This document shows, piece by piece, positions 10,347 through 44,999 of a DNA stretch of 64,000 bases. Both the position numbers and the translations under genes were made by a program. Origin of the DNA: Liolophura sinensis (lineage: Eukaryota > Mollusca > Polyplacophora > Chitonida > Chitonidae); assembly GCF_032854445.1 (NCBI RefSeq), contig NC_088304.1:19505850-19569849 (forward strand). Reading direction: 5' to 3'. Below the pieces are notes generated by a model. It saw only the letters and a list, made by a program, of their open reading frames with translations. It was not told where the DNA came from and searched no databases. Position 1 is the first letter of the stretch. Each line of letters begins with the position of its first letter.

Positions 10347-10406
10347 ACCTCTTATATATACACCGTAGTGATTGCACCATTGAAGTCTCAAGTTGTAGGC
10401 CTATTC

Positions 10407-10845
10407 GTTTCGCCGTTGGTGATTGACACGTCTTTGTACGTCTTGGTACTCTCTTTTAGGCAGTTGACGTTTGTTTAGTCTTTGTGCCTTTGCCACTGAA
10501 TTTTATTAAATCTCTGTACGTCTTTCGCTGGTGACGTTTGTTAAGGCTTTGTACTCTTTTCACCATTGACGTTTGTTAAGTCTTTGTACGTCTTTGTACT
10601 CTTTTTTGACTATTGCATGGCGTTTGTTAAACGTCTTTCTACGTCTTTCGCCGGTGACGTTTGTTAACTCTTTGTACGTCTTGGTACTCCCCTGTCGTCA
10701 TGCATTGACCTTTTGTTAAGTCCTTGTACGTTTTGGTACTCCCCTTTCGCCGTTGAGGTTTGTTAAGTCTTTGAACGCCTTGGTACTCCTGTTTCGTCAT
10801 AAACATTTGTTAAGTCTTAGTACGGCTTTGTACGCCTTTATTCGA
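10407..10845. repeat. Degenerate minisatellite, TTTGTTAAGTCTTTGTACG units
   Basis: Roughly eight to ten imperfect copies of a 45-60 bp unit with core GTTTGTTAAGTCTTTGTACG and a TTGGTACTCCCCTTTCGCC spacer, starting just after the stop codon of the small plus-strand gene and probably within its 3' UTR. Confidence 0.75.
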
Positions 10846-13881: not shown

Positions 13882-16800
13882 ATGGCCTGGAGCTGTGAGT
13901 TACCCCCAGAGCTTGTCTGCCGCCCCACGGGACTGGTCGTCCTGACAGGTCTAGACGTCACCTATAACGCCATCCACAAATCCATCTGGGACTCATTCTA
14001 CAACAACCGACGCCCAGACCGCGTTCCGCTCCAGTTCCAAGTCTGTGATGGTGACCATGAGTACCCAAAGTGTAGGACTAAGGTACTGGAACAATTAGGG
14101 CATCTGTGTACAGAAGTGGTATTGCAAAAACAGAGTTCAGCCTTGTCATGTCTATTCTTATCTTCATCAGAAGAAGTTATTGTTTATTTGTAATGTCAGC
14201 TTAAGTTTTTGTTTTTCTGAATAAAGAATAAGGCCTTTTGAAGGATAGGGATGTTTTGTAATGCAAAAGGCGCCTGGCTGCCTGACAGAGACATCATTTC
14301 TTTGTCAAACATGTATATGTAAATTTATCCATCAGTCAAAATTAAATCACCTGTCAATTGGGTTCTGGGCATAGAAGTGAACTCCCATACCCCATCTCTA
14401 TTCGCCACACCCTACCCCGCTATTTTCCCCCCGCAGAGAACGTCCTATGAATGGTACATTCCTAAGGGCATCCTAAAAACATCCTGGATGAACAAACACC
14501 TGACACAGGTACCTGCTGTTGTTGTTGTCTTCTTTGACCTGGACTGGGATGAGACCATGTGGAAGGAGAGGCAGATGGAATGTGCCACGCGCATAGAGAT
14601 CGTACGGTGAGTTGGCAGATAGAATTGATTTATTTCACATTGGAAAATTCAGACTGCATTATGCATTGTTGACGTTTTGTCATCACCACATTTCATATTA
14701 TCTCTTGAACAAAGACTGTTGATATAAATATTACATATACAAGAGTTTGCACAGTGAAATTTGAATACCGTAATAACGCGCCATATAGCTTTGAAGCTTG
14801 CTTTATTTTTTTTTTAAATTTAATTATTTCATTTAACATGCATTTATTACACTTAGTTGCTTTGTAGCGGTATACTAATTCCACAGTGATGGTTGAAAGA
14901 TTTACATTTCCTTTAGCTGCAGCTAGTATAGCATGTCCGATTACATTGTTAAAAATGAACAAGTGGTGTTTCATATCACTGAATGATTTGTGTGTTTCGA
15001 GTAGGAACAGTCTCCATGGGCGTGGCACACGTGTTGCCGTGGTTCTCATACAGAAGAATGCCCCTCTTCCTCCAGGTGAGTGGTTAATTGAAAAAAGTTA
15101 AAAGTTATTATTGTGAACATTTGTTAGTTGAAGTGAATCTTAGATGAATTAAATACTGGCTACCTACATGTAGAAGATTTGCAAAAAAAAAGGATTAACT
15201 TGAAGCTATGTTATGAGGGCCTCCATGGCCGAGTGATTAGCAAGCTAGCGCAACACACAGTGGCTTAGAAGCCTCTCAGCAATGCAACTCCTAAGAGTTG
15301 GTTTCCTCTCCGGCCGTACATGGTAAGGTCTTCCAACAACCTGCCTATAGACATGTGTTTCTGCCCCCCATGATGCTGGCCACTGTCATACATAAAAAGA
15401 AATATTCTTGAATGTGCTGTGAAACAAGAAGCAAACAGATAAATCAATCAGATAAATCAATCAAACCATGTAGTATAAAAAAAATAATCATCCACTATTA
15501 TAACTCATTGCGATGCTATTGTTGGAAATTACATAATCTACCAGGAGTGTTTGGTGTTGGAATTATTTTGGAACATAGTCTATAAACTATACTTGTTTTG
15601 TACACGTGTTTGAAATATCTGCTGAGTGCATGTACATGTTCATCAGCATCTACCTGTCTGGCAGTCAGCGTGTCCATCCTAACTGTCTGTTCATCTGTTC
15701 ATCTGTTCCACTCTGTGCCTCTTCATTTGTTTGCGTATCCTTGTATCAGTCTCTCCATTCATTTATCTTTCCTGTTTATGTGGCCATGATACATCTACCC
15801 AGTTGTCTGTCCATCTCTGTCTTTTCCTACATTTGTCTTTCAGTCCATTCCTTTCTATGTTGGCCTGTCTTTATTTTTATCCATTTGTTCATCAGTTTGT
15901 TAATTTGTTTACCCATCTTTTCCTTCCTCTTTTTATTTCTCTCTTTGCCCTTCTGTTCTTTACTCTGTGTGTCTGTTCATTTGTTTATCTTTCTGTCCAT
16001 TGTTCATTTCATTGTTTATCCCTCTGTATTATTATTTATGTGTCGATCTGCCACCCGTTGATTTGTCTGTGTATGTATGTATCTGTCTGTTGATTTGTCT
16101 GTGTATGTATGTATCTGTCTGTTGATTTGTCTGTATATGCATGTATCTGTCTGTTGATTTGTCTGTATATGCATGTACCTGTCTGTTGATTTGTCTGTGT
16201 ATGTATGTATCTATCTGTTGATTTGTCTGTGTATGTATGTATGTCTCTGTATATATGTATCTGTCTGTTCATTTGTCTGTATGTATGTATCTGTCTGTTC
16301 ATTTGTCTGTGTATGTATGTATCTGTCTGTTGATTTGTTTGTGTATGTATGTATCTGTCTGTTGATTTGTCTGTATATGCATGTACCTGTCTGTTGATTT
16401 GTCTGTGTATGTATGTATCTATCTGTTGATTTGTCTGTGTATGTATGTATGTCTCTGTATGTATGTATCTGTCTGTTCATTTGTCTGTGTATCTATGTAT
16501 CTGTCTGTTGATTTTTCTGTGTATCTATGTATCTGTCTGTTGATTTGTCTATGTATAGATGTATCTCTTTATCTGTCTGTTGATTTATCTGTGTGTGTAT
16601 GTATCTGTCTGTTCATTTGTCTGTGTGTGTATGTATGTGTCTTTCTGTTCATTTGTCTGTGTATGTATGTATCTGTCCGTTCATTTGTCTATGTATCCAT
16701 GTATATGCCTGTTGATTTGTGTGTGTATCTATGTATATGCTTGTTGATTTGTCTGTGTATCTATGTATCTGTCTGTTGATTTGTCTGTGTATCTATGTAC

Positions 16801-19800
16801 CGGTCTGTGGATTTGTCGGTGTATGTATCTATCTGTTGATTTGTTTCTGTATGTATGTATATGTCTGTTGATTTGTTTGTGTATGTATGTATGTACCTGT
16901 CTGTTGATTTGTCTGTGTGTGTATGTATATGTCTGTTGATTTTTCTGTGTATGTATGTATCTGTCTGTTGATTTGTCCGTATCTCTGTATCGGTTAATTT
17001 GTCTGTGTATCTGTTGTTACTCTGTTATCTGTCCCTCTGTCTGTCAGGTGAGGATGTAATGGCCGCCGAGAGAGCTGCCTCTTTCTGCAGTGCCTGTGAC
17101 CTATCAGCGAAGTCCTTGTTTGTCCTGCCTCATACGGATCATTTGATTGGATACACCATTCGGTATGATATTGTTCCTATAATACAGGTCAAGGGTCAGT
17201 TTCATGAAGCCTGCTTAGTGTTAGGTAGCCCTTACTTAAGTTCACTTCATATGTGTACCACACACCATATGTTGTCATGCAAGTTAAGACTTTCTTCGTT
17301 GGATTTGCTTCATGTCTGTTTGATTATAACTTAATTTATAAAATTTATATTTTAATTGTCATGCTGGCTTCCTCTCCGGCCGTAAGTGGGAAGGTCTGCC
17401 AGCAACCTTCGGATAATCGTGGGTTTCCCCCGGGCTGTGCCCGGTTCCCACCCACCATAATGATGGCTGCCGTCGTATAAGTGAAATATTCTTGAGTACA
17501 GCGTTAAACACCAATCAAATAAATAAATAAATAAATATTTTAATTGCAAGGTGCTCAATTTGAATTTTCACCGTTTAACATTTGCTTGAAACTGACTTTT
17601 TTCACTCCTACATGATTTTATTATTATATTTTTGTTCAGTCTCGAAATATCATCAGGTGTACTGTCTAAGCACTTAAAAACAACTGCAATATTTTATTGA
17701 ACTCTAGTCTATATATGAACTGACAGCATTTATGCTCAGGAAATCAATAAATTCATTTTTAATCAGAAATTCTTACTATGCCTGGACTGCGCTGTGTTAA
17801 ATCAAGCAGAAACCCGATGTTATGTCACTTCTGACGCACGCAGATATGGTTGATACATGTAGGCAAAGCAAGGTTCAGAGGGCATGAGCAGAAACAGCTG
17901 TGTTCTTGAGTTATAGAGATAACTCACACCTGATTGGACCAAAACTGACCAATGGCAGCGCTTTCTATTCTATTTTTTCATGGTGTGCAATTTTGCTTAC
18001 TTTGAACTGTGATATCCATTTGTGTAACATCACAAAGAGAGGAAGTTATGCTTTTTAAAGTTCATGTTGGATACTTTTTGGTTACATATATACATTTAGT
18101 CTAGTCTTGTTTTTTCTTTTAAAATAGCTTTGATGTGTTTCAGGCTGGAGAATGCATTTTATGAACTGGCACAGGGCTATTACCACTCTGAGGCTCGCAA
18201 AGTCAAAGCTCACAAGGACTTCCTCAACAAGACCAACCATCAGGTAAAGCAATACCTCAAAGAAATAGTCCAGCTGACTCATCTTAAAAGTGCTCATTTG
18301 AAAGTGAAAGTGAAACTAAATCTAAATCTCTGGCCTGTTCAGATTCTACTTTGGAAGGCAACAAGTGTAGAGGAATCACAGGTTTGAGCTGAGTTGGCTG
18401 TGGTTTTAAGACATTTCATTAGTCAGGCACCTTGTAAAGGCTGTTGGTTTACTCTGGGCACTCTGGTTGGCCCCTCACATATAAAGTCTTTCAGACTGCT
18501 GCCTTATAAGTGAAGGATGGTGGTTTACTCCGTTCTCTTGACTTTTTCTCCAATCAGTTACTGGTTTTGCCTGTTATGTTTTCAGCTCGTATTTTTCTCT
18601 CCCCAGTTACTGTTTGTCTGTCATCAGTTTAAGGTGGCCTTCTTCAGCTCATATTTTTCTCTCCTCAGTTACTGTTCATCTGTCATCAGATTATAGTGGC
18701 CTTCTTCAGCTCATATTTTTCTCTCCTAAGTTACTGTTCGTCTGTCATCAGATTAAGGTGGCCTTCTTCAGCTCATATTTTTCTCTCCTCAGTTACTGTT
18801 CGTCTGTCATCAGATTAAGGTGGCCTTCTTCAGCTCATATTTTTCTCTCCTCAATTACTGTTTGTCTGTCATCAGTTTAAGGTAGCCTTCTTCAGCTTGT
18901 AATTTCCTCCCCTTAGTCACTGTTCATCCCTCATTAGTTTTTATCTCATATTTTTCTCTCCCCAGTTACTGTTTATCCGTTGTCAATATAAAGTGGCCTA
19001 CCCCATCTCGTATTTTTCTCTCCTCAGTTACTGTTTGTGCGTCATCAGTTTAAGGTGGCCTTCTTCAGCGAGCTGAAGCAAGACACACACACAGCTATCA
19101 AGTAAGTTTAGCATGAGAACTTAAAAATGAATTGCCTTTCCACCACCACCACCACAACCACAGAGGATACTGGATCCAGTTGTTCAAAACTTTACATGTA
19201 CACAGTTGTATTATAGAAACTCTACATGTACACAGTTGTATTGTAGAAACTTTACATGTACACGGTTGTATTATAGAAACTCTACATGTACACAGTTGTA
19301 TTATAGAAACTTTACATGTACACAGTTGTATTATATAAACTCTACATGTACACGTTTGTATTATAGAAACTCTATGCGTACACGGCTATATTATAGAAAC
19401 TCTACATGTACACAGTTGTATTATAGAAACTCTACATGTACACGGTTGTATTATAGAAACTCTACATGTACACGGTTGTATTATAGAAACTCTACATGCA
19501 TGTACATACATGTACCCGGTTGTATTGTAGAAATTTTACATGTACACAGTTGTATTATAGAAACTATACATGTACACGGTTGTATTGTAGAAACTCTACA
19601 TGTACACAGTTGTATTGTAGAAACTATACATGTACACGGCTGTATTATGGAAACTCTACATGTACACGGTTGTATTATACAAACTCTACATGTACACGGT
19701 TGTATTGTAGAAACTCTACATGTACACGGTTGTATTATACAAACTCTACATGTACACGGTTGTATTGTAGAAACTCTACATGTACACAGTTGTATTGTAG

Positions 19801-22800
19801 AAACTATACATGTACACGGCTGTATTATGGAAACTCTACATGTACACGGTTGTATTATACAAACTCTACATGTACACGGTTGTATTATAGAAACTCTACA
19901 TGTACACAGTTGTATTATAGAAACTTTACATGTACACGGCTGTATTATGGAAACTCTACATGTACACGGTTGTATTATTAACTGTGAATCCTTTCTCTCC
20001 ACAGACATTATAAACAAGCCTATGGGCACATCTTGGAGTTGAGAATGCACGACAACAACTTGCTGGAGATTAAAACAATAGCTGGCTTCATTAATTACAA
20101 GGTAAGAGTCAAGATTTACACTAATCAGGACATAGTTTGTGTCAAACCCTGATCGAATGATGCACTTTTTGCGCATTTGCTGGCTCAGATGATTAAGGCA
20201 AGGGCATTATCAGGTACTTAAAACAAAAGAAAGCTAAAAGTTGATCTAAGGTGCATCTGACAGGCAGCTGAAAACTAAATGCACTAAAAATACTTCCATA
20301 TACATGTATGTTTTTAGATTTTATTTGAAGAGCTTTGTAGGCATTCTAATGTTTGAATGGTTTGATGGGTTTTATGGGCCATACTAATGATGTTTAGGTA
20401 TTCTGACATCAGGAGGAAGAATTTTTTAAAATATTATTTTAGTAATATTTTACTTATGGGTAAAAATGGCAATCATCCAGTGCCATGTTTAGAATAGAAA
20501 AAATGTTTTGTAATGGCAGAGTTCGTAAAGCCTGGGAGTATGACCCAAACAACCCCATTGCATATTGGTCTAGGGAGATCATTTGATCCAGTCCATTTGG
20601 CAGGGATAGCGTTACTTAATCAGTATGACTCTGAAGTTTGGTCAGGTACCATGGAAGGTGGTGTACAACCAAATGTATCATCCAGGGGAAAATTTTGTGA
20701 GTAGAGAGTTAGGCATCAGTCAGGTAACTAAGTATTAATTTGTATAAACTTGTCTTTTTTGCAGATATGTCGTTTATCCTTCCAACACAACGCTCCGCTA
20801 GATGCCATCGCCCAGTTCCGTAAACACATAGATTTCTTCAAGAACAAAACTGGTACCCCGGAACTGGCGTTTGAGCACAGTGCTTGGATGTCCAAACAGT
20901 AAGTGGCGTTTTGTGGCATTTTGTATGATTAACAACATAAAACAGGACACCATTTTTTGATCTACCATTATTACAGCTGACAGTGTCTAAGTGAAGTTGT
21001 TCCCCTTTGCTGCCACTTTAGGTTAGACTTTGTTTGAAGACTACCGTTTTTTTTTGGCACCAGTGTGGTGTGTATATCTGTATGTCAAATTTTGGAGAGT
21101 TTGTCAGTAACATGCCAAGGTTAAGTGGTTTAATCCAGGCATTCCTCCATCCATAAAACTCACTGCCGTTGCATAAATCAAAAATTCTTGAGTATGCTGT
21201 TGAACATATGCTGTTATCATAAAATGATAATTTAAGTAATCATGTTTGCTGAGTAAAACTCAATTTTGGTGTCCCTAAGCTCCAGTTTTTAATCAGATTT
21301 CAGGTATTTGGGGATTTGTTTGACGAAGCCATCAAGCTGGGGCTGACTGCTATCCAGACACAACATCCTGGCTTCTACTACCAACAGGCTGGGAATCACG
21401 CTATAGCCCGCAAACAGCTGTGTAGAGGGTTATGCCATGTAAGTCAACGTGGTTTGAAAACAACTTTGTAAAATTTCATTGATAATTTGTATAATGACCC
21501 ACAAGGTAATGACAGAGCCTTTATGTTAAAAGCAAGGTTAAATGATAAGAATCCAGATAGTTTGAATTACTTTTTTAAAATTTAAAATGCCATATAATGA
21601 AACTGTCGTTTCCACATTTGCCTCGTATAATGTCACGCATGAACAGTTGGTGTTGCCCACCCATGAAGTATAGGCACAAAATTTATGGAAAATACATGTA
21701 CTGTATTTTATTTTTTATTTTTGAGTGGTTAAATAGTGTTATTCAGGGTAAATCCAATTGAACCATAGTTTTAGCTCTGTTTCCATAGGATTTCTTTCAT
21801 GTCATTTAAATGTTTCCACATACTTTATCTTAGGACTGGAGTAGCACTGTAAGCAAGAGACACAGGTTCAATCCTGAGCTGGGTAAAGTTTGAAATTTTA
21901 AACCTGACAATCTTGGTGCATATGCTTCTTTGATTGGTGCTCACTTTATTATTTTTTTTTTTTTCACTGAGTTATTGTGTTGTCAAGTCTCTGGGTTATG
22001 ATGCTGATCAACTTGCATATATCAGGCAAAATTGCCCTGCAGCTAAACTGAAAGAATTTCAGGTTGACCTGCTGGCAGTTATTTCTATTTCTACATCTTC
22101 TCTTCAGTGGGATGGTAAGTTTAGATCTCAAAAGACATATCCATTTGACATATCCAGTATCATTTTGTTTAACACCTGTATTAGATCATTGTTCACTTTT
22201 TCATACTTTTTTCCCTTTTTGTTTTTTCTTTACTCTTTTCAAGTATGATGTGTATTAATTTCCAGCCACTGACTAAGCCCCTCTCTCCGGACCCTCTGGA
22301 AAACCTGAACAACCTGGATTATTATGGACAGAGGCCTTGGCGACAAGGACATCAAAGTAACCCTGGAAACTGTCTTAAAGCTGTATAAATTTTGCTTAAC
22401 TTAACGTAGGTCCAGTAATCATTAAGTGCAAGATGTTAATGTTTAAAACTTACTTCATTGCTTGGCTTTGGCCTGTAATGTCATAGTGCACATGTGTGCA
22501 ACCACACGTGTAGAATGCAGTATCCAAAACTGTACACTGCGCATCACACGTGGGTAAAAATAACCTTGAGTATTATGTTGAACGACCATTAAATAAATAA
22601 ATAAATAAATAAATTGTTCAGTTAAAGAAGAAATGACAGCCTTGATAAAAATTGGAAATGTTCAGTAGAGCTGTTGTGTTACGTTGCATGAACCTTCCTT
22701 TTGTTTGATCTGTTAGTCAATCAGTCCGTGTCTCAATGTTCTTACAGGTATTGAGCCTCCGGACTCCCAGACTGAGAGGGATGGTGTGTTAGCTCTGCAG

Positions 22801-25800
22801 CATCTAGAGACACAGGTCGACCATTCTGTGAGTCAGACTGGTTCTTGTCCGAACATACAAAATGTTGAAATTGTCCTCGAAATTGCTCGGATATTCATAG
22901 TTACATTTACATCTACATATCTATGTTGATCTGTAAGTTTGTAGAGGGGGGCCTCTGTGGCTCAGTTGGTTAGCGCGCTAGCGCAGCCTAATAACCCAGG
23001 AGTCTCTCAACAATGCGGTTGCTGTGAGTTCAAGTCTAGCTTATGCTGGGTTCCTCTCCAGCCGTACGTGGGAAGGTCTTCCAGCAACCTGCGGATGTGC
23101 GTGGGTTTCCCCGGGCTCTGCCTGGTTTCCACCCAACATAATGCTGGCCGCTGTCACATAAGTGAAATATTCTTGAGTACGGCGTAAAACACCCATCAAA
23201 TAAATAAATAAATAAATAAATAATACTGTAAGTTTGTAGAAGACACATGTACTTGTTGTTGCAAATCCAGTTATGATCTAAAATATTGTTCCTTTAATAT
23301 CAATCCAGCAAGTTGGCATCCATACCAATTTTGCAATAAAGTGGTGTTTTCATTTAATACCAGCCCAGTTATAAAGGGAAGACCTATTTTTTCTATAATA
23401 CAAAGTAAGTGAAAAAAGGAGGTATTTGTTGTTAAAACACAAACCCCTTTACGACTGATTCCTTCTGGGATATCAGTGATACTGTGTTATAATGGTACAT
23501 GTACGTCCTGGTGATAATGTGTTATAATGGTACATGTACGTCCCGGTGATAATGTGTTATAATGGTACATGTACGTCTCAGTGATAATGTGTTATAATGG
23601 TACATATACGTCCCATTGATAATGTGTTATAATGGTACATATACGTCCCAGTGATAATGTGTTATAATGGCACATGTACGTCCCAGTGATAATGTGTTAT
23701 AATGGTACATGTACGTCCCGGTGATAATGTGTTATAATGGTACATGTACGTCCCAGTGATAATGTGTTATAATGGTACATGTACGTCCCAGTGATAATGT
23801 CTGAGCTTGTTTTATTTCCCCAGTGGCTGATCATCCCCCTCCTTAGCAGTGCTGTGGCTCAGTTCAAGAAGTACAAGTCTGCTCGCATGAAGAGATACCT
23901 CAGTGAGTAGTAACTCAATAATCTGAGTATGAACTCAATAATCTGAGTATTGACTTAAGAATCTCAAGAATAGAACACTTAGCTGACCATTTTAGTCGCT
24001 AGTACGCAGAAGCTGTGGGGTAAAGTCCAACCTTGCTCAGGGGATTTGTTGATTCACCCCGTGACTGTTTGAGTTATTCATTTATTTGATTGGTGTTTTA
24101 CGCTGTACTGAAGAATATTTCACGTGAATGACGGTGACCACCAGCATTATTGTGGGAGGAAACCAGGCAGAGCTCGGAGGAAACCCAAGACCATCCGCAG
24201 GCTGCTGGCAGACTTATGGCGCGAGAGGAAGCCAGAATGCGCTGAACCTCTGACTGTTTGTGGAGCTTTGGTGACAATAAGCAGTCTGTGACTCTCATGT
24301 GGCCTTCTGCACAGTGTAAAGTTCATAGAAAAATTTTTTTTCTAGTTATACAAGTTTACCTTATTTTTGTTTTTGTTTTTATTTTGTGTTTTTTTTTTGG
24401 TAAGTTTAATTAATTAGTTAACTCAAAAACTTAAGGCATAAAAATTGCATGTTTACATACCAAACTTTAGGTGAAGTGCATGTTTACATACCAAACTGTA
24501 GGTGAAGTGCATGTTTATATACCAAATTTAGGTGAATTGTATGTTTATATACCAAACTTGAGGTGAAGTGCCTGTTTACATACCAAACTGTAGGTGAAGT
24601 GCATGTTTATATACCAGATTTAGGTGAAGTGTATGTTTATATACCAAACTTGAGGTGAAGTGCCTGTTTACATACCAAACTGTAGGTGAAGTGCATGTTT
24701 ATTTACCAAATTTAGGTGAATTGTATGTTTATATACCAAACTTTAGGTGAAGTGCCTGTTTACATACCAAACTGTAGGTGAAGTGCATGTTTATATACCA
24801 GATTTAGGTGAAGTGTATGTTTATATACCAAACTTGAGGTGAAGTGCCTGTTTACATACCAAACTGTAGGTGAAGTGCATGTTTATATACCAGATTTAGG
24901 TGAAGTGTATGTTTATATACCAAACTTGAGGTGAAGTGCATGTTTACATACCAAACTGTAGGTGAAGTGCATGTTTATATACCAAATTTAGGTGAATTGT
25001 ATGTTTATATACCAAACTTTAGGTGAAGTGCCTGTTTACATACCAAACTTGAGGTGAAGTGCATGTTTATATACCAAATTTAGGTAAAGTGTATGTTTAT
25101 ATACCAAACTTTAGGTGAAGTGCATGTTTATATACCAAACTTTAGGTGAAGTGCATGTTTACATACCAAACTGTAGGTAAAGTGCATGTTTATATACCAA
25201 ACTTGAGGTGAAGTGCATGTTTACATACCAAACTTGAGGTGAAGTGCATGTTTATATACCAAACTTGAGGTGAAGTGCATGTTTATATACCAAACTTGAG
25301 GTGAAGTGCATGTTTATATACTAAACTTTAGTATGGTACCCTAATTCTTTGACGTTTTCAACGGCCTCTGCAACCAATATTTTGAAACATTCTGAGAGCT
25401 ACATATGATGTGTAGAGAAATAATCTGCACAGTTTTATTAAGCTTGCATCCTAAGTGACTCAAGCAGATTAATTTGAGAGTCATTTTCGTAATAATTGTA
25501 TGCATAAATTCGACTTTAGTGCTTCAGTTGTTGAAAAGGTTGAAGATTTACAGTAAGTGTTAGGTTAATCTACATGGAGCATGTATGTATGTGTTTTGCA
25601 GTGGTGCAGATGGGGGAGGAGTATTATCATGCAAGAGACTACACCAAGGCCCTCACGTGAGTACATAAACAATGTGGGCATCACCAAAGCCCTCACATGA
25701 GTACATAAACAATGTGGGCATCACCAAAGCCCTCATGTGAGTACATAAACAATGTGGGCATCACCTACGCCAAATCCCTCACATGAGTACATAAACAATG

Positions 25801-28800
25801 TGGGCATCACCAAAGCCCTCACATGAGTACATAAACAATGTGGGCATCACCAAAGCCCTCGTGCGAGTACATAAACAATGTGGGCATCACCTACGCCAAA
25901 GCTGTCACGTGAGTACATAAACAATGTGGGCATCCCCTATGCCAAAGCCCTCACATAAGTACATAAACAGTGTAGGCATCACCTATGCCAAATCCCTCAC
26001 ATGAGTACATAAACAATGTGGACATCACCTACACCAAAGCCCTCACGTGAGTACATGAACAGTGTGGGCATCCCCTATGCCAAAGCCCTCACGTGAGTAC
26101 ATTAACAATGTGGGCATCCCCTATGCCAAAACCCTCACGTGAGTACATGAACAATGTGGGCATCCCCTACACCAAAGCCCTCACATGAGTACACAAACAA
26201 TGTGGGCATCCCCTATGCCAAAGCCCTCACGTGAGCACATGAACAATGTGGGCATCCCCTACACCAAAGCCCTCACATGAGTACACAAACAATGTGGGCA
26301 TCACCTACACCAAAGCCCTCACGTGAGTACATGAACAATGTGGGCATCCCCTACACCAAAGCCCTCACTTGAGTACATAAACAATGTTGGCATCACCTAC
26401 ACGAAAGACTTCACGCGAGTACATAAACAATGTTGGCATCACCTACACCAAAGCCCTCACATGAGTACATAAACAATGTGGGGATCACCAAAGCCCTCAC
26501 CTGAGTACATAAACAAAGTGGGCATCACCTACACCAAAGTACATAGACAATGTGGGCATCACCTACAAATTTGTGTGTACCTGTAAAATTTTGCCTTTGA
26601 ATGGGTTGTACTTTTTGCCTGATACTGAGAGTTCTAATGATCCTGGGAAAGTGTTTTTAGGTTTATTTTGAAGGTAGGATTAGATCCAATTTGGAAAATG
26701 TATTAACCAAGAGTAGTATTTTGTGACATTCTAAAAATGTACTTTTTTAGGGTGGGAACTTCAGGTCATTTACTGTGTGTAAATAACAAAGTAACCAAAA
26801 GTAACACAAAATATATTCAGCAAACGAAGAGCTTTCTTTTCACCTTTGCCGTCTTCAGTGGCTGAGAAAACTTGAGAAAACTGGTTTCTGCTTGAAATAC
26901 CCTAGCTCTTGACCAATGAGGGTGGAGGTTCAAATCCAGCTCTTTGTGCTTCAACTTCAGGTCATAGAGTGAGTGAGTGCTTGGGGTTTAACGTCGTACT
27001 CAACAATTTTTCAGTCATATCACGACGATTCAGGTCATAGAGCTTTGTATCGTAACTGGACAGTCTTGATGGCAAATAGTCCATTCTCAGTGAACAATCG
27101 GGCCACATATTGGAATCCATCTCCCCACCTTCCCAGTGCTCCCAATGCTCCCCACCTTGCATTGACGTAAAAAGCTTTCAGTTTTGCAATAAAACACCAA
27201 TGAAGTTCATCAATCTAACATGCTTGGTTGTTTGGATTACACTGTAGACCTACTTATGTGTTCATACATACCTTATACAGTGAAACCATTTGCATAAAAT
27301 TAGGCCAGCATGTGAGACATGTCTGTTTTAGGCAGATCATGATATAGCCAGACAAATTATCAACAGAACAATGTAGGTGATGAAAATTTTCATTGACCAG
27401 TTTTTCCCGTTGTTGTTGTTGTAGCCTACTGGGTAAGGTGACATGGGACTATCGTCAGGAGCGATGGTGGCTTCTTCTCACCTCCATCCTGGAAGTCTCC
27501 CTCAAGTGTGCGTATCTCATCGCTAAGGTCCAGGACTATGTCACAGTCTGCCTGGAGCTCATTGGGCAATGTATCCTTTTTGCCTAGATTGCGATTCCTT
27601 CTTAACATTACCATGGATGTCAAATTCAAAATCACTGTTACTCGGCAGACGTAGTCTGACAAGAACACAAACATTTCATGAAACAAGACTGAAAATAATA
27701 GTTCTTGGTACAGATGACAATATCAAATTGGTAGTTCTTATAAATTTCTTACATGTACATATAATGTTATAAGTAAATAAACCCAATTAAAACCAGTGTA
27801 ATTCCTAGTGGAATTTACACTCTTCTGAAAAATGTAAGCTTTCGCCTGTGTACATTTGAATCATGCATACTGTGTTTGTATCTGTAGTTAGTTTTATTTT
27901 TATGTTCATTAACATTGAAGATTAACATGTAGCTTCCAGTTTGAGACAAAATCTTTGTTCCTACATTGTATCTACATGACCTTGTGACTGAGAAGATGTA
28001 ACAAAATAAAAATGTTGAATATTGTTTAAAAATTCATGATAAGGCATTAAATTCAAACATTGCCCTCTGGCAAAAAAAATATGCATATTGTATGTCGTAC
28101 AAAAGCTGACAGTTAATATTTTTTAGTGTCTTACAGTCATTAGATTTTCACATCTGTTTGTTTGATTGGTGTTTTACGCCGTACTCCAGAATATTTCACT
28201 TATACAATGGCAGCCAGCATTGTGGTGGGAGGAAACTGGGCAGAGCCCGGGGGAAGCCCACAACCATCTGCAGGTTGCTGGCAAACCTTCCCATGTACGG
28301 CTGGAGAGTCATTAGAATTCAATTAGAATTTAGTTAACGTGTACATATACCTCATAGGTTTGTATTTTCATTAAACTTAAATAATTAAATAATTAAATAA
28401 TTTTGAATAAATGACCATGTTTGTTAAAATTAATAAGCTGTTGGTAGAGCAGCAGGGAGTTATCAGCTGTTGGACTGTGCTATGAGGGTAAAAACCTTGA
28501 CACCTGTGTCAGACTCAACCTGTGCTGTGGAGGAGAAGACTCGGGTGCAGATGAACCTAATCAGAGTGATGTCTGTGAGTTCTTTAAACCAAATTTGCTC
28601 TTCCCTTTGACGATTTTCCATTTGTTCATCTAGATAAATTTTTTATTTGCATTTTATCTGACTACTGTAGTGTTTGGGGAAACTTTCTTGAGAATAGTGT
28701 ATTACACTAACTAAATTGTCAGTAACCCTTATAATGTATTGGCATATCATTTCAGCATAGTTGTTCTTGTTCAAACCGAACATAGAGAGATAACCTAGTC

Positions 28801-31800
28801 AACAGATGCATATGGTATTGGCTGCAGGATACAGAAATATACACATTCCCCATGTAAATGTTGCTGTCCAATGAAAACCAGAGAATTTTGTCAGAGAGGG
28901 ACGGATAAATGTATATATGTGAATGACTGACAAGATGTGCAGTAGTTATCTTATGTGTGTGTTTTGTAGGGGGCGACCCCTGAGCCAGAGCCTGGTCTGG
29001 AGGCTGGCTGTGTGGAGGCAGCTCGTAGTGCCTGGGGGGCACAGACCAATAAGCAGGACCTATTCTCTGTGGACATGCAGAACATTATCCCATTTGGTGA
29101 GAATCAGAGTGGTTTAAGACTTAGTACCAGATTTAACTTTAAACCAAGTCTTCAATTTTGTACTCAGCCGAAAAAAAAAATGGTTTTTTGCAGAATCCTG
29201 TAAAAATGCAGAATTTGCACTTACATGAAATCTCGGAAAACACAAGCAATCATTTTAAATATCTTTACTGTCTTACTTTAATTTTCTTTTTTGCTATATC
29301 ACCTGAAGTATTTACATATACTCTGTCAACTGATTGAATTTTTTCTTTTTTTTTTTTTTCTTTACACAGTTGAGTGTAAGTCAAGATTTACAGCGGAATC
29401 ATTTGCTGCGGATGGAGAGATCAGTATTGAGGTGTATCTGAGGTTTGTACTAATATATAATACATCATAATCAAATCATTCGCACCAGCTTCTGCATGGA
29501 CAGACTGTCTGATGTTAGGAACATCAGCATAGAAAGTCTGGACTAGATTGTACTGTAGTTCAGCCTGTTTCTCACTGAAAATGGATGAGTCCAAACCTTC
29601 TTTCATGGTTCCAGGGGTGATCATAAGGTGTTCTTTTATGTGGTCCTGCATGAAATTTTGCTGGCCTTTCCTTCCACCAATATCACAGACTGTGTTTGCC
29701 CAAAAAATGTGCCCAAAAAACTCTTAAATAAAGGTCATAAAGTACTACTTTTGGCAAAGAAACTTACATTTTGCCAGTAGGATGTGATCGTACATGTATG
29801 TTCCAGACAAATGTCAAAACACTCTCAGAATGAGATAAAGTGAGTAAGTGAGTCATATAAGTCTTGGATGAAAATTTAGGTAAAATACAGTATGTGACAT
29901 GTGGGAAGAGTTTTATCAGTAACTCCACATTGCAGTTTTGTTGCCTGGAAATCAGTCAAATCCTTACAGTATTGAAAAGATCATTAAAGATCATTTTGCA
30001 TTTTCTCTGCTTGCTGTAATGTTCCGTCACTATGTTAATAGGCCTGCCTGTAAATTAAGCTGGAGCTCTGTCATCTTGTTGATCTAATCCCTAACTGCCT
30101 CTCGGCTTTCAGGACCAGTTGTCAGTTTCCTCTGCGATTTGCCAGGCTCTCTGTCAACTTTAACAACCAGGTAGGTCCTCACCCCAAACTCTCATATTCT
30201 CTTCTTCTGTGGTTTGCTCATTTGAAAGTAAAATTAGAAGTTCTAGAGTAATATCAAATTAGAATGTAAGTTTATTCTTTATGAACCAGCTATAAAACAT
30301 CAGCACAAATAGGCAATCACTTACACTTTATAGTCTGTAGCTGGAATTACGATAATGCTGGCTGCCTTTGTATAAGTGAAATATTCTTAAGTACACCAAT
30401 CAAATAAATAATTAAAACACCAATCAAATAAAGAAATAAATACATGATAAGTGGTACTTATTTATCATTAAGAGAGACACAGTATAAATTATATTTGCTT
30501 GTAATATGTTGACTGCAGTCCCGTTTTCTGCGCACCATAGAATATAATTTCTTTTTTTTCTGTTTTCTTGAGTGCAAAAAAACATGAGATTCTGATACAT
30601 GTTGTTCTTGTTTATTCCTTTATTTAATAGCTGTATAACCAGTACTGTGTGGTGACGGATGGTCAGGGCATCTCTGCGGCCTCTGAGGGGGAGGGTGGGA
30701 GTGCTGACCTCTACCTGATCCCCGGCCAAACTAAGCTGTACACATTCACCTTCCTCCCCGTGAAGGAGGATGTCGGTGGACAAGTGGAGGTAACTCTTGC
30801 TGCTTTCATCATGTCCCATGCACCACCAAAAGCTTAGTGTGTACTAATACAGCATGTGGGCTGTAATGTGAGAGGAAAATGAAAAGAGAAAATAAACATA
30901 CATGCCAGAAAAAAACTTCTGTAAGGGAATGTATTTAATTGAGATAAAGTTAAGCACTCTCAATCTCCACAGACTAAATTCACCCATCTCTCCTTAGTTC
31001 AATCTGACGAGATTGAATGTAGTTGTTTCCCATTCTTTCTTCATTCAGTCAGTTATTCCCTCTCTTTAGATTGAATGTAGTCGCCATCTTTGTTTTGTTT
31101 TTTGTTGTTTTTTTTTTCATTTGCATGCTTTTATTCTCACTCTTTGCATTGAATGCAGTCCCCATTTCTCTTTTCTGCATAATTAAATTATTACGTCTGT
31201 CCTTTCTTCAGTTTGATCACTGTTAGTCTTCAGATTGAATGTAATAGATTGTTTCTCCTTTTTACAGTCATTGCCTCACTTAAGATTTGATTTAATTATC
31301 TCTCCTTTTTTCAGTTTGACGACTGTTATCTACCCTCTTCTCTTTTTTTCACTTTGACCCCAGCTATGTTCAAATTTAATTAGTAATTTCAGCTTTCTTT
31401 AACTATCATAGTTATTCTCTCTCTTCACACTGAATGCAGTCAGTTGTTCCTCTTTCTTTCAGTTTGATCGCCTTTATTCACCCGCTTCACACTGAATGCA
31501 GTCAGTTGTTCCTCTTTCTTTCAGTTTGATCACCTTTATTCACCCGCTTCATATTGAATGCAGTCAGTTGTTCCTCTTTCTTTCAGTTTGATCGCAGTTA
31601 TTCACCCTCTTTACACTGAATGCAGTCAGTTGTTCCTCTTTCTTTCAGTTTGATCGCCTTTATTCACCCGCTTCACACTGAATGCAGTCAGTTGTTCCTC
31701 TTTCTTTCAGTTTGATCACCTTTATTCACCCTCTTCACACTGAATGCAGTCAGGTGTTCCTCTGTCTTTCAGTTTGATCGCCTTTATTCACCCGCTTCAT

Positions 31801-34800
31801 ATTGAATGCAGTCAGTTGTTCCTCTTTCTTTCAGTTTGATCGCCTTTATTCACCCTCTTCACACTGAATGCAGTCAGTTGTTCCTCTTTCTTTCAGTTTG
31901 ATCGCAGTTATTCACCCTCTTTACACTGAATGCAGTCAGTTGTTCCTCTTTCTTTCAGTTTGATCGCCTTTATTCACCCGCTTCACACTGAATGCAGTCA
32001 GATGTTCCTCTTTCTTTCAGTTTGATCACCTTTATTCACCCTCTTCACACTGAATGCAGTCAGGTGTTCCTCTGTCTTTCAGTTTGATCGCCTTTATTCA
32101 CCCGCTTCATATTGAATGCAGTCAGTTGTTCCTCTTTCTTTCAGTTTGATCGCCTTTATTCACCCTCTTCACACTGAATGCAGTCAGTTGTTCCTCTTTC
32201 TTTCAGTTTGATCGCAGTTATTCACCCTCTTCACACTGAATGCAGTCAGTTGTTCCTCTTTCTTTCAGTTTGATCGCCTTTATTCACCCTCTTCACACTG
32301 AATGCAGTCAGTTGTTCCTCTTACTTTCAGTTTGATCGCAGTTATTCACCCTCTTCACACTGAATGCAGTCAGTTGTTCCTCTTTCTTTCAGTTTGATCG
32401 CCTTTATTCACCCTCTTCACACTGAATGCAGTCAGTTGTTCCTCTTTCTTTCAGTTTGATCGCCTTTATTCACCCTCTTCACACTGAATGCAGTCAGTTG
32501 TTCCTCTTACTTTCAGTTTGATCGCCTTTATTCACCCTCTTCACACTGAATGCAGTCAGTTGTTCCTCTTACTTTCAGTTTGATCGCAGTTATTCACCCT
32601 CTTCACACTGAATGCAGTCAGTTGTTCCTCTTACTTTCAGTTTGATCGCCTTTATTCACCCTCTTCACACTGAATGCAACTGTTGTCTCCCCTTTTCTCA
32701 GATTGAACATCATTATTTTCTCTGCCCTTTGCAGATAGTAGCCGTTGCGTTGGAGTTAGGCTCGGAGTCGCACAGACGGGCAGTGTTACGCTGGCAGGGG
32801 GCGGGAGGAGAGTCTGTGACATCATACATTGCCCAGCCCCACCCATCACCCAAGAACAACAGCCAGGCCCTGCCCAGCTGGGAGGTGATCAAACCCTCAT
32901 CTCTGGCCAGGTATTACTGGGGATGTATTGCAGATTTCAGTGATGAAAAATATATTGTCATGAAAATGTAGGGTGTTTTTGTATTGCATAGGATCTGATG
33001 GCTGATATGTAGGGCTGATGATTCATGCATCCCTCTCTTTACATGTATGTGGCTGTTTTTACAAAATATAGATGTGTTTGTAAGTGAGCAGGTTTTATAA
33101 TATCAGCTAGCTGGCTGGCAAAGAGCGATGTTGTACCCCATACACTCTGGTTTCTTCCACACACTAAACCTTACAGCTGACTGAGTGCCTTGAGTACAGT
33201 GTTAAACATCATGGTACACCTGACATGTGAATGCTTTTTTTTGTGTCTTTTCTTATTATTTTTTTTTATTTATTTATGTATTTTTTTTTCATCCTGGGTA
33301 GAATATCTGGAGGAAACCAATCTTCTGAACTGTTAGATTCTAAGGATGTATGAGATTGAAATAGACTAAGAAATATGTAATAATAATATTTACCATAGTG
33401 TAAAATAATCCCATCTTCTCTGACCCTGCCATTCACTTATCATTTTCTGTTGGCATTTTTAGAATTGTCCCAAGAGGATCCAAGATGTTGGTGGAGTTAA
33501 AACACCAGGCCCCAAGTTTGCTGAATGAGTTCTACCCAGTGCAAGTGGTTCTCACCAATCAGGAAACCCTCTCTATTTCTGATATCAGGTATAGTAACTT
33601 GTTGAGAACCTGGTGTCCTGCTGCAGTCCAGAAACCCTCCCCATTTCTGATACCAGGCATAGTAACTGTGAATGGAACTTGGTGTTCTGCTGCAGTCAGG
33701 AAACCCTCTCCGTTTCTGATATCAGGTATAGTAACTTGTTGAGAACCTGGTGTCCTGCTGCAGTCTGGAAACCCTCCCCATTTCTGATACCAGGCATAGT
33801 AACTGTGAATGGAACTTGGTGTCCTACTGTAGTCAGGAAACCCTCTTCGTTTCTGATGTCAGGCATAGTAACTTTGACCAGAACCTGGTGTCCTGCTGCA
33901 GTCGGTTAATCATGAAGCTGAGGCACCAGCTTGTGCTCAGTCCTCTTCAGCAGTGAATCAGTGGGGTTAGTGAAAAATCCTTGAATATTAAAGTTACAAA
34001 GAATCCAATTTAAGAAATGCACTCTTTGATGGACGAGAAGAAGTTTGGAGAAACAGGGATTACGTGTGAAAATTTTGTTCATTTCAGGTTGACTTTTGGA
34101 GTTCTTGAAAGCACAGACAGTGCTATTGATCAGACAAGTAAGTGAAGATACAAGTAGTGTTGTTGATCAGGCAAGTCGTGTAAAACTATTCTGTTGATCA
34201 GACAAGTAAGTAGATGGATGTGGATGTTGTCTGTGACAACAAAACAATGGTGATATGGCAGAAATAATGTTTAATAATAAGGTGACTATATTTCACCTAA
34301 AGCTTAGCATTTTCAAGGGTCACATTTTGCTTCATTCTAATAAATTCATCCACTTTTTAATAATAGGGCCAGTTAAGAGCTTATTGTAATGTTTGATTAA
34401 TTTTTCTAGCAGAAATACTTTAGTGTTTGCATCAAAAGTATCATTTTAAGGCTTTTACAAGCATCTTCTTCTGAAAGTTTAATTTTTACATACTAAACTC
34501 CAGGTGAAACACAGAGCTCTTTCAATGTTTGGAAAAAAACCTGCTGTCCTGAGTTTTGGATATTCATGTGTATATCTGTGTAAATTATAGTCTGCATATA
34601 ATACAGGCTTATTATTGTGTATGATGTTTTCAGCTCACATATGTGAAGACTCTGCTGATTTTGATGGGACTGTGGTATCCAGGAGATGTGGACTCTCCCT
34701 AGGAGCCTTACAACCTGGGGAACAGGTAAGGAGAATCTCACAGCTACACATGTGCACACATATGTGGCAGTCAGGTTCACTCACAGATTTTCTCCACACA

Positions 34801-37800
34801 TTAGACTTGCCACCATAATTAAAGTAAATGAAATGTTCTTTAGTAAAGTGTTAACCTCTAATAAATTCAAAAAGGAATTTCGTTGGTGCAAATGTTCTCA
34901 GAGACGTTGATTGTAGAGTTTAATTATAAAACCGAATTGAGAAAGCTCAGTAAAGTTATGTCCTTTCAGACAATGCAGGCTTTGTCCGGGATGAATCCAT
35001 GAGGAATTGCTTTGTTATATTTATGTTTTAAATATGTAAACATTGTATTTTGGAAGTATTGGATGTTTTCATTGGGAACAATTCTGCATTTTTCAGACCT
35101 CCAAATGGTTTTACCTGAAGTGTTTACAGACAGGTGTGAGGAATGTGGAGGTCAAGGTAAGTACATGTGGAAGTGACACCTGTATCAGTAATAATGTGGT
35201 AATACTGTATTATTCATGGGTGGTGTACAACATTGAGGTCTCTCCCCGAGGTCAAACTCTATCCTGTAGCTGTTTATATCAGTAATAAGGTGGTAATTCA
35301 GTATTATTCACTGGTGGTGTACAATGTTGAGGTCTCTCCCCGAGGTCAAACTCTATCCTGTAGCTGTTTATATCAGTAATAAGGTGGTAATTCAGTATTA
35401 TTCACTGGTGGTGTACAATGTTGAGGTCTCTCCCCAAGGTCAGGCTCTGTCCTGTAGCTGTTTGTATCAGTAATAGTGTGGTAATACTGTATTATTCACA
35501 GGTTGTGTACAATATTGAGGTCTCTCCCCGAGGTCAGACTCTGTCCAGCAGCTGTTTGTGTCAGTAATAATGTGGTAATTTAGTATTATTCACAGGTTGT
35601 GTACAATATTGAGGTCTCTCCCCGAGGTCAGACTCTGTCCAGCAGCTGTTTGTGTCAGTAATAATGTGGTAATTTAGTATTATTCACAGGTAGTGTACAA
35701 TATTGAGGTCTGTCCCCGAGGTCAGACTCTGTCCTGTAGCTGTTTGTATCTTTTGTAGCTTGGTAATACTGTATTATTCACAGGTGGTGTACAACATTGA
35801 GGTCTCTCCCCGAGGTCAGACCCTGTCCTGTAGCTGTTTGTATCTTTGTAGCTTGGTAATACTGTATTATTCACAGGTGGTGTACAATGTTGAGGTCTCT
35901 CCCCGAGGTCAGGCTCTGTCCTGTAGCTGTTTCACAGAAGAGAACATCTCACTGTCTACCGTGGTCCCATTTGAACTCAGCGTCAAGCTAATGTCTGTCA
36001 AGGTGAGCCCATCTCCATGTCTCATGTAGATTTGACAAAAAGCATTTGTACCTAAAAGAGTATCAGACGATTAGACGATATTAGATAAGTTGATGGAAGA
36101 CATCAGTGGGATACCGGCAGGTCCGAAGTGGAATGTATTACGTCATTTCGGTGACGCTGGACTTTCCACTGCAGCGTCAACAGTGTGACGTCACACTGGG
36201 TAGGCAAAAATACGTCACAGATGAAACTGCAGAATGCAACATGTTTTGCGTCGTGCAATATAAGACTTGTGACATGCAAGTCCTGTGCCACACTACCACC
36301 ACCTTTTGTGAGAGGAAAATCTGCCTGTTGGCTAAACTTTGTCCTATATCTGTCCGCTAAATCTGGGGTTTCCTTCAAGAGAGCCAGGTTTTCTCCACTC
36401 TTAAGTCTAAATATTCTCACATAAGTAAAATATTCCGGGGTGCCATGTGAAACAAGAATCAGTTACATATTAAGTATATTAACTCAGTTGAACATCAAAG
36501 ACTGTCCTCAATATAGGTATGTATAGGTATAGGTATGTTAGGAACTTCCTACCTGATTTATTACTGGCATGAGGCAAATCTGCCTTCCATAAGGATTAAA
36601 GAATTGTCTACATTCGATATACATGTGAAACTTGAAAATTAACAGTTCTTCAGAGGACAGAGTCTTGAATACATGAATGAACACATTTTATACATGTGGG
36701 TACTTCTTTGTTGCAGTTTGAGAATATTGAAGTGGTTCATTCAAATGAAGCCTTCTTAGCAATACCTGAAATTAGGTGCACATCACCATGGCAACTAGAA
36801 ATGGGTGAAAGCCAGCTATCAGTGGTAAGAATATAGCTTCTACGAACTGGCGTATGATAAAAGCTCAATAAAAGGCTCAAACAGAACGATCAACAGCACC
36901 ATTACTAAATGTTGCCAAGAATGGGAAGTAAAGAGCTTTGCAATAATCATCTGTACAGGTCAAAGTAAAAACATATGGGCCAGAGTAAAAACATATGGGC
37001 CAGAGTAAAAACATATGGGGTAAGTAGGGATCTGAGAACGGTTCATAAATTTAACTTTTTTCCAGGTAAATCTCTTGCTTATATTGTCATTACAAAAAGA
37101 TTTTTTTTTTTGGCAAAACTGATTTCACCTAAAGCATCGTTTGTACATATAAACATGTATTTTATTGAAACCTATTTCAAAGCTGTATTTTATGTTGTAT
37201 TTTATGCTGTATTTTATGTTGTATTTTCAAGCCTGACCAAGTTGTTATTGAGAGTTTCCAGTCACAAGTCAAGGGAGGTAAGTCAGACTACTATTTAATG
37301 TATGCCCGTAACAGTTTAGTTGTATCATGAAAGTTTTCTTCAGAAAAATACTAGTAAAATGAGTAAATGGAGAAGTGTTGCTGAAGTATATATTTGTGAG
37401 TGTAAAGCCAGAACTCATTGGGGCCATTGCTAGCTCAGTATTGCCGCAATATGGCTGCAGTATTGTCACAATATGGCTACAGTATAGCCGCAATATGGCC
37501 GCAGTACTGCTGCAATATGGCAGTGGTATTGCCGCAAAATGGCCATGGTATTGTTGCAATATGGCTGCAGTATTGTCACAATATGGCTACAGTATAGCCG
37601 CAATATGGACGGAGTACTGCTGCAATATGGCAGTGGTATTGCCGCAAAATGGCCATGGTATTGTTGCAATATGGCTGCAGTATTGTCGCAGTATGACTGC
37701 AGTATGGCTGTGGTATTGCAGTAATATGACTGCAGTATTGCCGCAATATGACTGCAGTATTGCCGCAATATGGCAGCAGTATTGCCACAATATGGCCACA

Positions 37801-40800
37801 GTATTGCCGCAGTATGGCTGAAGTATTATCAAAGAGGCATTAAGCCATAGTCATTCATACATTGCATCTGTCAAGCCCTTGACCAAGGATGTTGCATTCT
37901 TAATGTCTTAGAATTAAATTAAAACCTGTTATTTGTTTGAGACATAATTTTGAGCTTAAAGATTGCAGTTGTTAATACCTGAAATACCCGTACTGAAATA
38001 TTGGAAATCTTTTGATCTGATCAACTAATAGATGTAAATGGATTGGATTGGAACTGTTTGCTTTGTGGAGTGTGTAGTAAACCTTGACCCTTTTCCACAA
38101 ACCTATCTAAATTGATAGTAACCTAATGGTTAGAGCATCCACCTTGAGGTCGAGAGACCTCAGGATCGAATCCGGGCCAAGTCATACCAAAGACTGAAAG
38201 TGGTACTGGTTGCTGCGTCGCTTTGCGCTTTGCACCGAGAGTAAGGAAACAGGACTGGTTGGCCCGGTGTCAATATGATGTGACTGGGTGGGGTGTCATG
38301 TCTGGTGTCTTCAGCATGGTGCTTTAGTGGCGGCAGCGTTTTGGCGGCATGGACACATCCTACCACAAGAAGACACAGTATACGTGTATACACCTATTGA
38401 CTCCTCGTCGTCACATGACTAAAAAATTGTTAAGTACGATGTAAAACCCCAAGCATACTTATACAGACATACATGTACATGTGTAACCATGGTAGTCCAA
38501 ACAGGGACCCAAATCTTTGCTCAGGTAAATCCTTTTATTTTGACATATATTGAGTTCAGTGTTTTTACCATGTGCTCTCTATTATTCAGTGATTGTTCAA
38601 AGCAAATACTCACGCGATTGGATATTAAATGAAACAAAAATCAAACAAGTTTTCACTTTTGTAGTGAGCCTGAAGAAGTCAGAGTGTGCGGCTGAGTGCA
38701 TCTGCTTGTCTGTGAGTGACACGCTCCATGCTTCAGTGAACCTGGGGTCTCTGACCTTGCACTGGAAAAGGTAGGTCTGAATCACATTTCGTTAGTCCAA
38801 ATTACAGTTTGAAAGTATTTATTTATTTATTTGATTGGTGTTTTACGCCGTACTCAAGAATATTTCTCTTATACGACGGCAGCCAGCATTATGGTGGGTG
38901 GAAACTGGGCAGATCTCGGGTGAAATCCACGACCATCTGCAAGTTGCTGAGAGACCTTCTCACATACGGCCGGAGAGGAAGCCAGCATGAGCTGGACTTG
39001 AACTCACAGCGACCACGTTGGTGAGAGACTCCTGGGTGCTGCGCTAGCCCGCTAACCAATTGAGCCACGGAGGCCCCACCAGTTTGAAAGTATTCTTGTA
39101 CCATTTAAATGTGTTATACATGTATCTTTAGATTTAATATTAAGGGTGAAGAGAGGAATCCAGCTTCAGGCTTACGTGTAAATCATGAGGATTGGCAGGT
39201 ACATATACCAAAGGCGGTTTCCTCGGGCACTCGCCGGTTTCCTCCCACCATAATGCTGGCTGATGTGGTATAAGTGAAATATTCTTGTGTACAATGTAAA
39301 ACACCAATCAAATAAATAAGTAAATAAATAAAAAAAATACCAAAGGAGGTGATTTGCTTCAGGCATTTTGGTTTCCCCACTCATAAAATTGATAGCCATT
39401 TTATAACTGAAAAATCCTTGAGTAAGGCATAAAAAAAACAATCAAATAAATAACAAAATTACATATATATGTATATTATATCTAATATTTGTATTTTTTT
39501 TGTATATTTGTATCTAATATTTTAAAGAGTAGATATGAAGTTTTGTGAATAAGATCAGGTAGAATAAAGATTAGGTATAAAATATGCTAAAATATGCAAG
39601 CTACTGACATAAAAAAGGTGAAAAATTATAGCTGTGTACAGAAAATTTTTTTATTTGTTCAGGCATTCAGCAGGTGATGAAATTCCTTTGGTCAGCACGA
39701 CCTTGCCGTTGCCCACGGTAACCATAGAGCACATTCCCATCAGCGTGAATTGCGACGTTCCGGCATTTGGCAGCGTCAAATCTCTCCTACCCCTGGGGTA
39801 CTGCGTGGAGAATCGTACAGCGTTTCTACAGGACGTGGAGATTACACTGGAACCGAATGACAACTTTATGTTTGCTGGTAACAAACAGGTCAGTGGAAAG
39901 TGGCCATGTAACATGACAGGTTATGTGACCTGTCAACAGTTATATCACACTCTGTTCTTTCTTTTCGAAATGAATGACCTGATAATTTTGTGAATGTGGT
40001 CAGATTTATTGATTTTCCTTGTCAAAGATACAGAACAAATGTTTTAAGCATTTTACATTGCATCGCAATGCTGCTCTGCATCCACAGTATTACAGATTTG
40101 TTTGTCTTCAATATATACTCTAATTTGTGCATCATATGTGGGAAAATCTGTGTGTAGCTTTTCAAAGGTCACTGGGTTTTTGATGGGGCACTTGAATTTT
40201 CTCCAACTATAAAACTGAACGCCATCGTGGAAGTGAAATATTTTTCAGTATGGCAGTAAACAACTATTGCATTAATTAAAAAAAAAATACATTCATAGTA
40301 AACTCGTATTATTTGCCTTGAAGATATGCTTGTATTTCCTGCCTTTAGAGTGTATGTATACTATTAGGTACATGTATTCTGTTAAGAATGATTGGATGAT
40401 TATGATTGAATTTACGTTGGCAATATTGCAGCTGTATCGATGGGAGAAAATTTTTAAACGAGGAGACGTTAAATGGTTCATGGGCTGATAATGAGAACAT
40501 CGAAAATCAAACAAAAAAGACATGTTTGTGGTTCGCCTATACATAGCTTATGTTGTACCCCGAGCATCTGCGTCCGTTCACAGGGAAAGCAATGTTAAGT
40601 AAAATTGAGGGGTGGTTTCTCAAAAAGTACTGTATGTATTGAGCTCAGGGCTTGTACACATGTAGAGCACAATATCACGGGCAGGACATTCCATGATCGA
40701 TTCAGTGTGTACATATTAAATACCGTAAATTACCCAATTCCTGACCTAGTGTATTGTGTATTAGAATCAATGTTAAACAAAGTGTTAGGGGTGATTTCTC

Positions 40801-44483: not shown

Positions 44484-44605
44484 GTTCAATTGTTTTTTTG
44501 TTCTTTCAGCTGAGAAAAGTGGCTTAAAACATCAGATTCTGCTGTGGTCTGTAGTAAACCAGAGGGTAGCAGTGAGGTCACATACTTATTTTTGACTTGA
44601 AATAT

Positions 44606-44755
44606 TTATTTGATTTGATTGGTGTTTCACGCCGTACTCAAGGATATTTCACTTATACGACGGCGGCCAGCATTATGGTGGGTGGAAACCGGGCACAGTC
44701 GGGGGGGAACCCACGACCATCTGCAAGTTGCTGGCAGACCTTCCCACATACTGGC
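44606..44755 (-). mobile_element. SINE family A, 5'-truncated copy
   Basis: Tail TTTATTTGATTTGATTGG, then the body to CAGACCTTCCCACATACTGG; head missing. Confidence 0.85.
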
Positions 44756-44999
44756 TTAACATAAATAGCTGGTTTCAATTTACATGTATTCATAAATGTA
44801 TATGTATATGCATTTTTAATGATGAAATGTAGCAGTCTGTATGTTCTAATTGACCAAACCTCGTGACTTCACTGGCCCAAATATTGTCAAAGATGGCCAC
44901 CTTAGAATGCAAACTTTCAAATGCATTTGACTTGGCTGTAAAAATACTAGAGGAAAGTATATGTACACATTTAGCCACAAACTGTATGCTTATTTACAT

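Follow-up and report, generated by a model that had tools for sequence, protein, structure and literature searches.

The coding part of the TRAPPC11 gene of the chiton Liolophura sinensis (Mollusca, Polyplacophora) occupies positions 13882..41969 of the 64,000-nucleotide stretch of contig NC_088304.1 analysed here (positions 19,505,850 to 19,569,849 of the forward strand in assembly GCF_032854445.1, hereafter the window, from the first letter of which all positions are counted). The gene lies on the forward strand, as do all of its features described below, and is divided into 31 exons, with exon 15 starting at 28513 and exon 31 at 41937. All of its 30 introns have GT-AG borders and the exons form a single open frame, the product of which matches the public L. 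sinensis protein P0001 at every one of its 1116 residues, contains the Pfam families Foie-gras_1 (E 8e-68) and Gryzun, and matches Drosophila TRAPPC11 (PDB 7b6h, E 2.5e-146). Five of the introns carry tandem repeats in which the repeated unit consists of the edge of the adjoining exon together with its splice signal, an arrangement known under the name of mirages and the subject of this report; the intronic copies of an edge are referred to below as decoys.

Exon borders recurring in their own introns were identified by a scan of all 60 internal edges of TRAPPC11, performed independently of the list given in the original prediction. Each edge, represented by 25 exonic and 15 intronic bases, was aligned to at most 1500 bases of the intron it borders and, as a control, to 150 pieces of the same length taken from other introns. 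Copies were found at exactly five of the 60 edges, namely the donors of exons 13 (z = 26), 21 (z = 22) and 22 (z = 9.7) and the acceptors of exons 6 and 25 (z = 20 for both), and at each of these none of the 150 controls reached the score obtained, with the exon part alone as well. These are the same five edges that had been pointed out originally, with coordinates essentially as claimed, and alignment of each array to its edge showed that the units do carry both the exon edge and the splice signal.

Comparison of the arrays with all exon edges of the gene gave the array's own exon as the best match in each of the five cases. When exon sequence alone was compared across all edges, exon 13 scored 31 against a highest control of 28, and exon 22 scored 25, below the highest control of 26. 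Next in rank was the acceptor of exon 29: its whole edge gave a z of 3.6 with 0/150 controls reaching the score, but its exon part was at chance level (44/150); for the acceptor of exon 27 the z was 2.6. Among the 17 arrays with a period of at least 10 bp listed by Tandem Repeats Finder (TRF) in TRAPPC11, the 13 remaining ones hold no exon base, and in 12 introns of the neighbouring minus-strand gene encoding a VPS9-domain protein none of the 24 edges stood out, the highest z being 1.6.

On the acceptor side, the mirage array of intron 5 (18539..19027) is composed of eight decoys with a 62-bp period and ends at the authentic acceptor of exon 6 (19028..19101), the source of the units according to the gene model and its conservation. 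Every decoy there comprises a polypyrimidine tract, an AG (AA in one case) and up to about 42 bp of the start of exon 6, the first and sixth decoys being diverged. The array of intron 24 (35181..35876) contains seven decoys with a 94-bp period, each unit consisting of about 39 bp of the intron end and about 55 bp of the start of exon 25 (35877..36002 in the gene model), the authentic acceptor of which follows position 35876. Its side and period had been given correctly, whereas its start is at 35181 and not at 35160, and the intron is wholly made up of the array except for its first 24 bases. Sequence comparison marks the last of these decoys (35784..35876) as a potential in-frame acceptor, since its 20-nt acceptor is identical to the authentic one and lies 93 nt upstream of it, in frame and free of stop codons; if used, it would add 31 residues to the protein.

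The donor-side arrays begin directly after the authentic donors (the stroke marks the splice site). Exon 13 (25602..25656; gene model and conservation), which ends in CAC/gtgagt, is followed in intron 13 by 20 decoys (25657..26563), the last of them partial, most being 40 or 46 bp long and including up to about 18 bp of the exon end. After exon 21 (33463..33588 in the gene model, TCAG/gtatag), intron 21 contains four decoys of 68 or 69 bp (33589..33903) organized in a 137-bp higher-order unit, with about 30 bp of the exon end present in each. The mirage of intron 22 (34138..34215), adjoining exon 22 (34088..34137 in the gene model, ACAA/gtaagt), is the weakest of the five, having two copies, both diverged, next to the real edge, with spacings of 37 and 31 bp, and is missing from the TRF list. 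At all five edges the real exon constitutes the first or the last unit of its array, as had been proposed, which follows from geometry because any other unit would be severed from the exon body.

A number of other arrays of the gene were considered and rejected. For those of introns 3, 6, 11, 12 (24446-25331) and 27, the adjoining edge was matched no better than other edges. The array of intron 19 (31412-32678, 62-bp period, about 20 copies) consists of units carrying the acceptor-like sequence TTCCTCTTTCTTTCAG or a close variant; among 30 acceptor regions, that of its own exon 20 was the best match by only 42 to 41, the matching unit is out of register with the exon and no exon 20 sequence is present in the units. 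A near-mirage was observed at 23904-23964, where an array of three 20-bp units begins one base into the exon 12 donor, so that the authentic donor bases form the first unit and are repeated, with no exon base included.

The splice dinucleotide is intact in 21 of the 41 decoys, comprising 7/8 at exon 6, 7/20 at exon 13, 1/4 at exon 21, 2/2 at exon 22 and 4/7 at exon 25. For 20 of these 21 intact decoys, use would introduce a premature stop codon in the extended exon or shortly downstream of it, the single in-frame decoy being that of exon 25 described above. The public protein contains authentic edges only and none of the decoy sequence.

The direction of copying can be approached through conservation, which was determined from 12 aligned orthologues of 120 listed (molluscs, a brachiopod, amphioxus, a coral and vertebrates). 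Residues LLFVRHQFK at the edge of exon 6 and the DYTKAL-like end of exon 13 are well conserved among these, the exon 25 piece is partly conserved and the exon 21 and 22 pieces loosely so. The good conservation of the repeated pieces at exons 6 and 13 shows that there the array was copied from the exon and, as read from this alignment, that the exon preceded the array at both of these edges. At exon 25 the exon probably came first as well, and exon-to-array copying is, by analogy, likely at exons 21, 22 and 25.

The units of the four larger arrays differ from one another (mean decoy identity 0.77-0.89). Neighbouring units are more alike in the arrays of exon 6 (r -0.34) and exon 25 (r -0.44), but not in those of exon 13 (r -0.09) and exon 21 (r 0.26), and in these four arrays the real unit is at least as close to the decoys as the decoys are to each other, except at exon 25 (0.821 vs 0.886). 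Divergence from the real unit is similar in exon and intron columns at exons 6 (0.158 and 0.146), 13 (0.156 and 0.093) and 21 (0.153 and 0.125), which fits an absence of coding constraint on the decoys. Short direct repeats at a junction typically point to tandem duplication through slippage or template switching, and at the founding junctions of the arrays homology was seen by eye at exon 6 (TTCAGC, 6 bp), exon 13 (CTACA, 5 bp), exon 21 (about 2 bp) and exon 25 (about 1 bp), the junction of exon 22 being too diverged.

Taken as a whole, the arrays are very probably the product of incidental tandem duplications that happened to span an exon edge, were amplified and have been tolerated because one intact edge stays on the exon. 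A short duplication spanning the border, presumably founded through short-homology template switching or slippage, would have produced a copy made up of exon sequence, splice signal and intron sequence, after which slippage or unequal exchange may have multiplied the copies into an intronic array. Because a normal message can come only from the copy that is continuous with the exon body, selection would then retain this copy alone, and the others would drift under near-neutral tolerance.

Several observations weigh against this explanation. Arrays at exon edges exceed random placement in most settings of the test described below, an excess not expected if their origin were purely incidental. 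In addition, when site strength was scored with weight matrices built from the splice sites of TRAPPC11 itself, 12 of the 21 intact decoys equalled the real site or surpassed it, the latter being true of four (three at exon 6, all of them higher; six at exon 13, one of them higher; and one each at exons 21, 22 and 25, none higher). Site strength alone therefore cannot explain the use of the real edge, and it is likely that adjacency to the exon body, in the manner of exon definition, keeps splicing on it. Finally, divergence is lower in the exon part than in the intron part at exon 25 (0.070 vs 0.333) and, in a comparison resting on two poor decoys, at exon 22 (0.200 vs 0.455); the value for exon 25 is partly an effect of aligning a shifted intron stretch, and such low divergence could result from constraint or from conversion by the exon.

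A tentative alternative, which we consider rather unlikely, is that minisatellites arise preferentially at exon edges, with polypyrimidine tracts, the nucleosome step or transcription-linked breaks starting or keeping duplications there. The placement test speaks for it. In this test, the founding units of all 17 TRF arrays of period at least 10 bp were placed at random, never wholly within an exon and never spanning a whole exon or intron (arrays with periods of 4-8 bp, at 22590, 23198 and 28377, were excluded). Four of the 17 arrays are found at exon edges against 0.6 to 1.6 expected, with P from 0.0013 to 0.056 depending on unit length and the overlap required, the value of 0.056 arising in one of four settings. 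Restriction to the 10 arrays of at least 250 bp gave P from 0.0012 to 0.042 and a hand-picked set of 13 arrays gave 0.0016 to 0.03, and in a hand-picked set of 14 arrays including exon 22 the count was 5/14 (P 1.6e-4 to 7.8e-4), a figure that is biased because the exon 22 repeat is no TRF array and equally weak intronic arrays were left uncounted.

Against such a preference stands the post hoc nature of the test, which concerns one gene picked after the pattern had been seen, as well as the neighbouring VPS9-domain gene, in which 0 of 24 edges stood out; moreover, acceptor and donor sides are both hit, so that no single motif can explain the arrays. The original prediction had proposed a shared mechanism, either slippage or replication trouble at exon edges or amplification tolerated next to a true site. 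Tolerance is the best-supported of these ideas. A special mechanism acting at edges is not borne out, given that the excess is modest and was found post hoc, and that the founding junctions resemble those of ordinary short-homology tandem duplications.

It is also improbable that selection disarms decoys by acting against copies with intact splice sites, as might be suggested by the loss of GT in 13 of the 20 decoys of exon 13, where the +1 column ranks third in divergence among 46, and by the GC found in place of GT in three of the four decoys of exon 21, where this column ranks third of 69. The splice site of exon 13 is straddled by a CpG (CAC/GT, 25656-25657), of which CA is the expected decay product, as seen in 8 of the 13 losses; selection against intact exon 13 decoys is not claimed here because it is inseparable from CpG decay. 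Besides this, intact sites were kept by most decoys of exon 6 and both decoys of exon 22, and the units of an array are non-independent.

A function for the decoys, whether as alternative sites (such as one producing a longer exon 25 in frame) or in the tuning of output through decayed messages, appears very unlikely. The in-frame decoy of exon 25, with its acceptor identical to the authentic one, and the strength of the intact decoys are in line with such a role, but the public protein uses real edges only, no insert at the exon 25 border is present in any of the 12 aligned orthologues, nearly all intact decoys would bring a premature stop and the other 20 of the 41 lack the dinucleotide altogether. 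That the arrays are an artefact of assembly is highly improbable, since their units differ from each other in the manner of real aged repeats and the surrounding gene model is intact, even if tandem arrays are error-prone in assembly and a mis-assembled mirage in the draft genome of amphioxus was noted by the authors of the globin study (PMC3087553).

Some further features were observed in the window. The VPS9-domain gene has an apparent GC donor (TCAG/gcaagt) at 58296, after an exon at 58296-58352, and a short gene at 8700-10350, the translation of which was read by eye, has no Pfam match; a 47-bp tandem array (10645-10833) lies about 300 bases past its stop codon. Dispersed copies of an element resembling a short interspersed nuclear element and ending in AAATAAATAAAT were recognized by eye in both orientations, with approximate coordinates of ~22950-23220, 17365-17540, 38820-39080, 44600-44760 and 59430-59640. 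Neighbouring open reading frames, each typed singly, gave no Pfam match above the cut-off, and RNA families reaching their gathering score were absent from the window.

Repeated splice donors similar to those of the donor-side arrays are said to be present in humans, Turri et al. having reportedly described in 1995 a minisatellite of the IFI6 (6-16) gene with multiple splice donor sites. Its unit of about 12 bp is reportedly located at the exon-intron border, with several of the donors being used.

Contrary to the supposition that no named class of repeat has the property described here, such a class exists in the form of the mirages of amphioxus, found in Adh3, in the globin genes BflGb6 and BflGb9 and at other loci (PMC3087553, where Canestro et al. 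2002 is cited). According to that paper, mirages affect both 5' and 3' boundaries, place the authentic edge first or last in the array, keep AG or GT in many but not all units and are reported to leave splicing undisturbed; their units, without the boundary unit, undergo concerted evolution and they show copy-number polymorphism and somatic instability. The TRAPPC11 arrays share with them a unit spanning the exon-intron border (with an exon part of about 18-55 bp at the five edges), the involvement of both sides (two arrays on the acceptor side and three on the donor side) and splice dinucleotides preserved in many but not all units. They differ in belonging to a mollusc, in numbering five within one gene and in having up to 20 decoys, and the spacing of their units is 31-94 bp as compared with 10-72 and 150-160 bp in amphioxus (PMC3087553).

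Two other systems are related more distantly. In the potato RdRp gene, an example of intron gain by tandem duplication, the duplicated block spans the intron-exon border and includes the acceptor and polypyrimidine tract, as stated in PMC4974935; unlike there, the chiton copies stay within existing introns, creating no new intron and leaving the public protein unchanged. In Sparus aurata, a repeat of about 150 bp is present at the 5' end of MSTN-2 intron 1, with an extra acceptor predicted in the two-copy allele (PMC3045353), and differs from the chiton arrays in having one or two copies.

In conclusion, the TRAPPC11 arrays are of a known kind, mirages, in a new place, and constitute a rich mollusc set; a partial search of the literature, by title and opening of the abstract, returned no report of mirage-type arrays in a mollusc. 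The occurrence of five of them in one chiton gene means that mirages are not confined to cephalochordates, in which they have been considered a possibly general phenomenon and a potential source of new introns (PMC3087553). The arrays also offer natural experiments on the choice of the correct edge by the spliceosome where as many as 20 similar copies lie nearby, several of them equally strong by weight matrix, and raise the genome-wide question of whether edge-spanning tandem duplications arise or survive more often than expected. It is an unlikely yet conceivable extension that exon edges are favoured birthplaces of minisatellites in chitons, and perhaps widely in lophotrochozoans, and that mirages represent a general and recurrent class of mutation in animals and no peculiarity of amphioxus; if true, these arrays would be a stock of ready-made splice sites from which new introns may arise, or in-frame lengthening of exons of the kind conceivable at exon 25.

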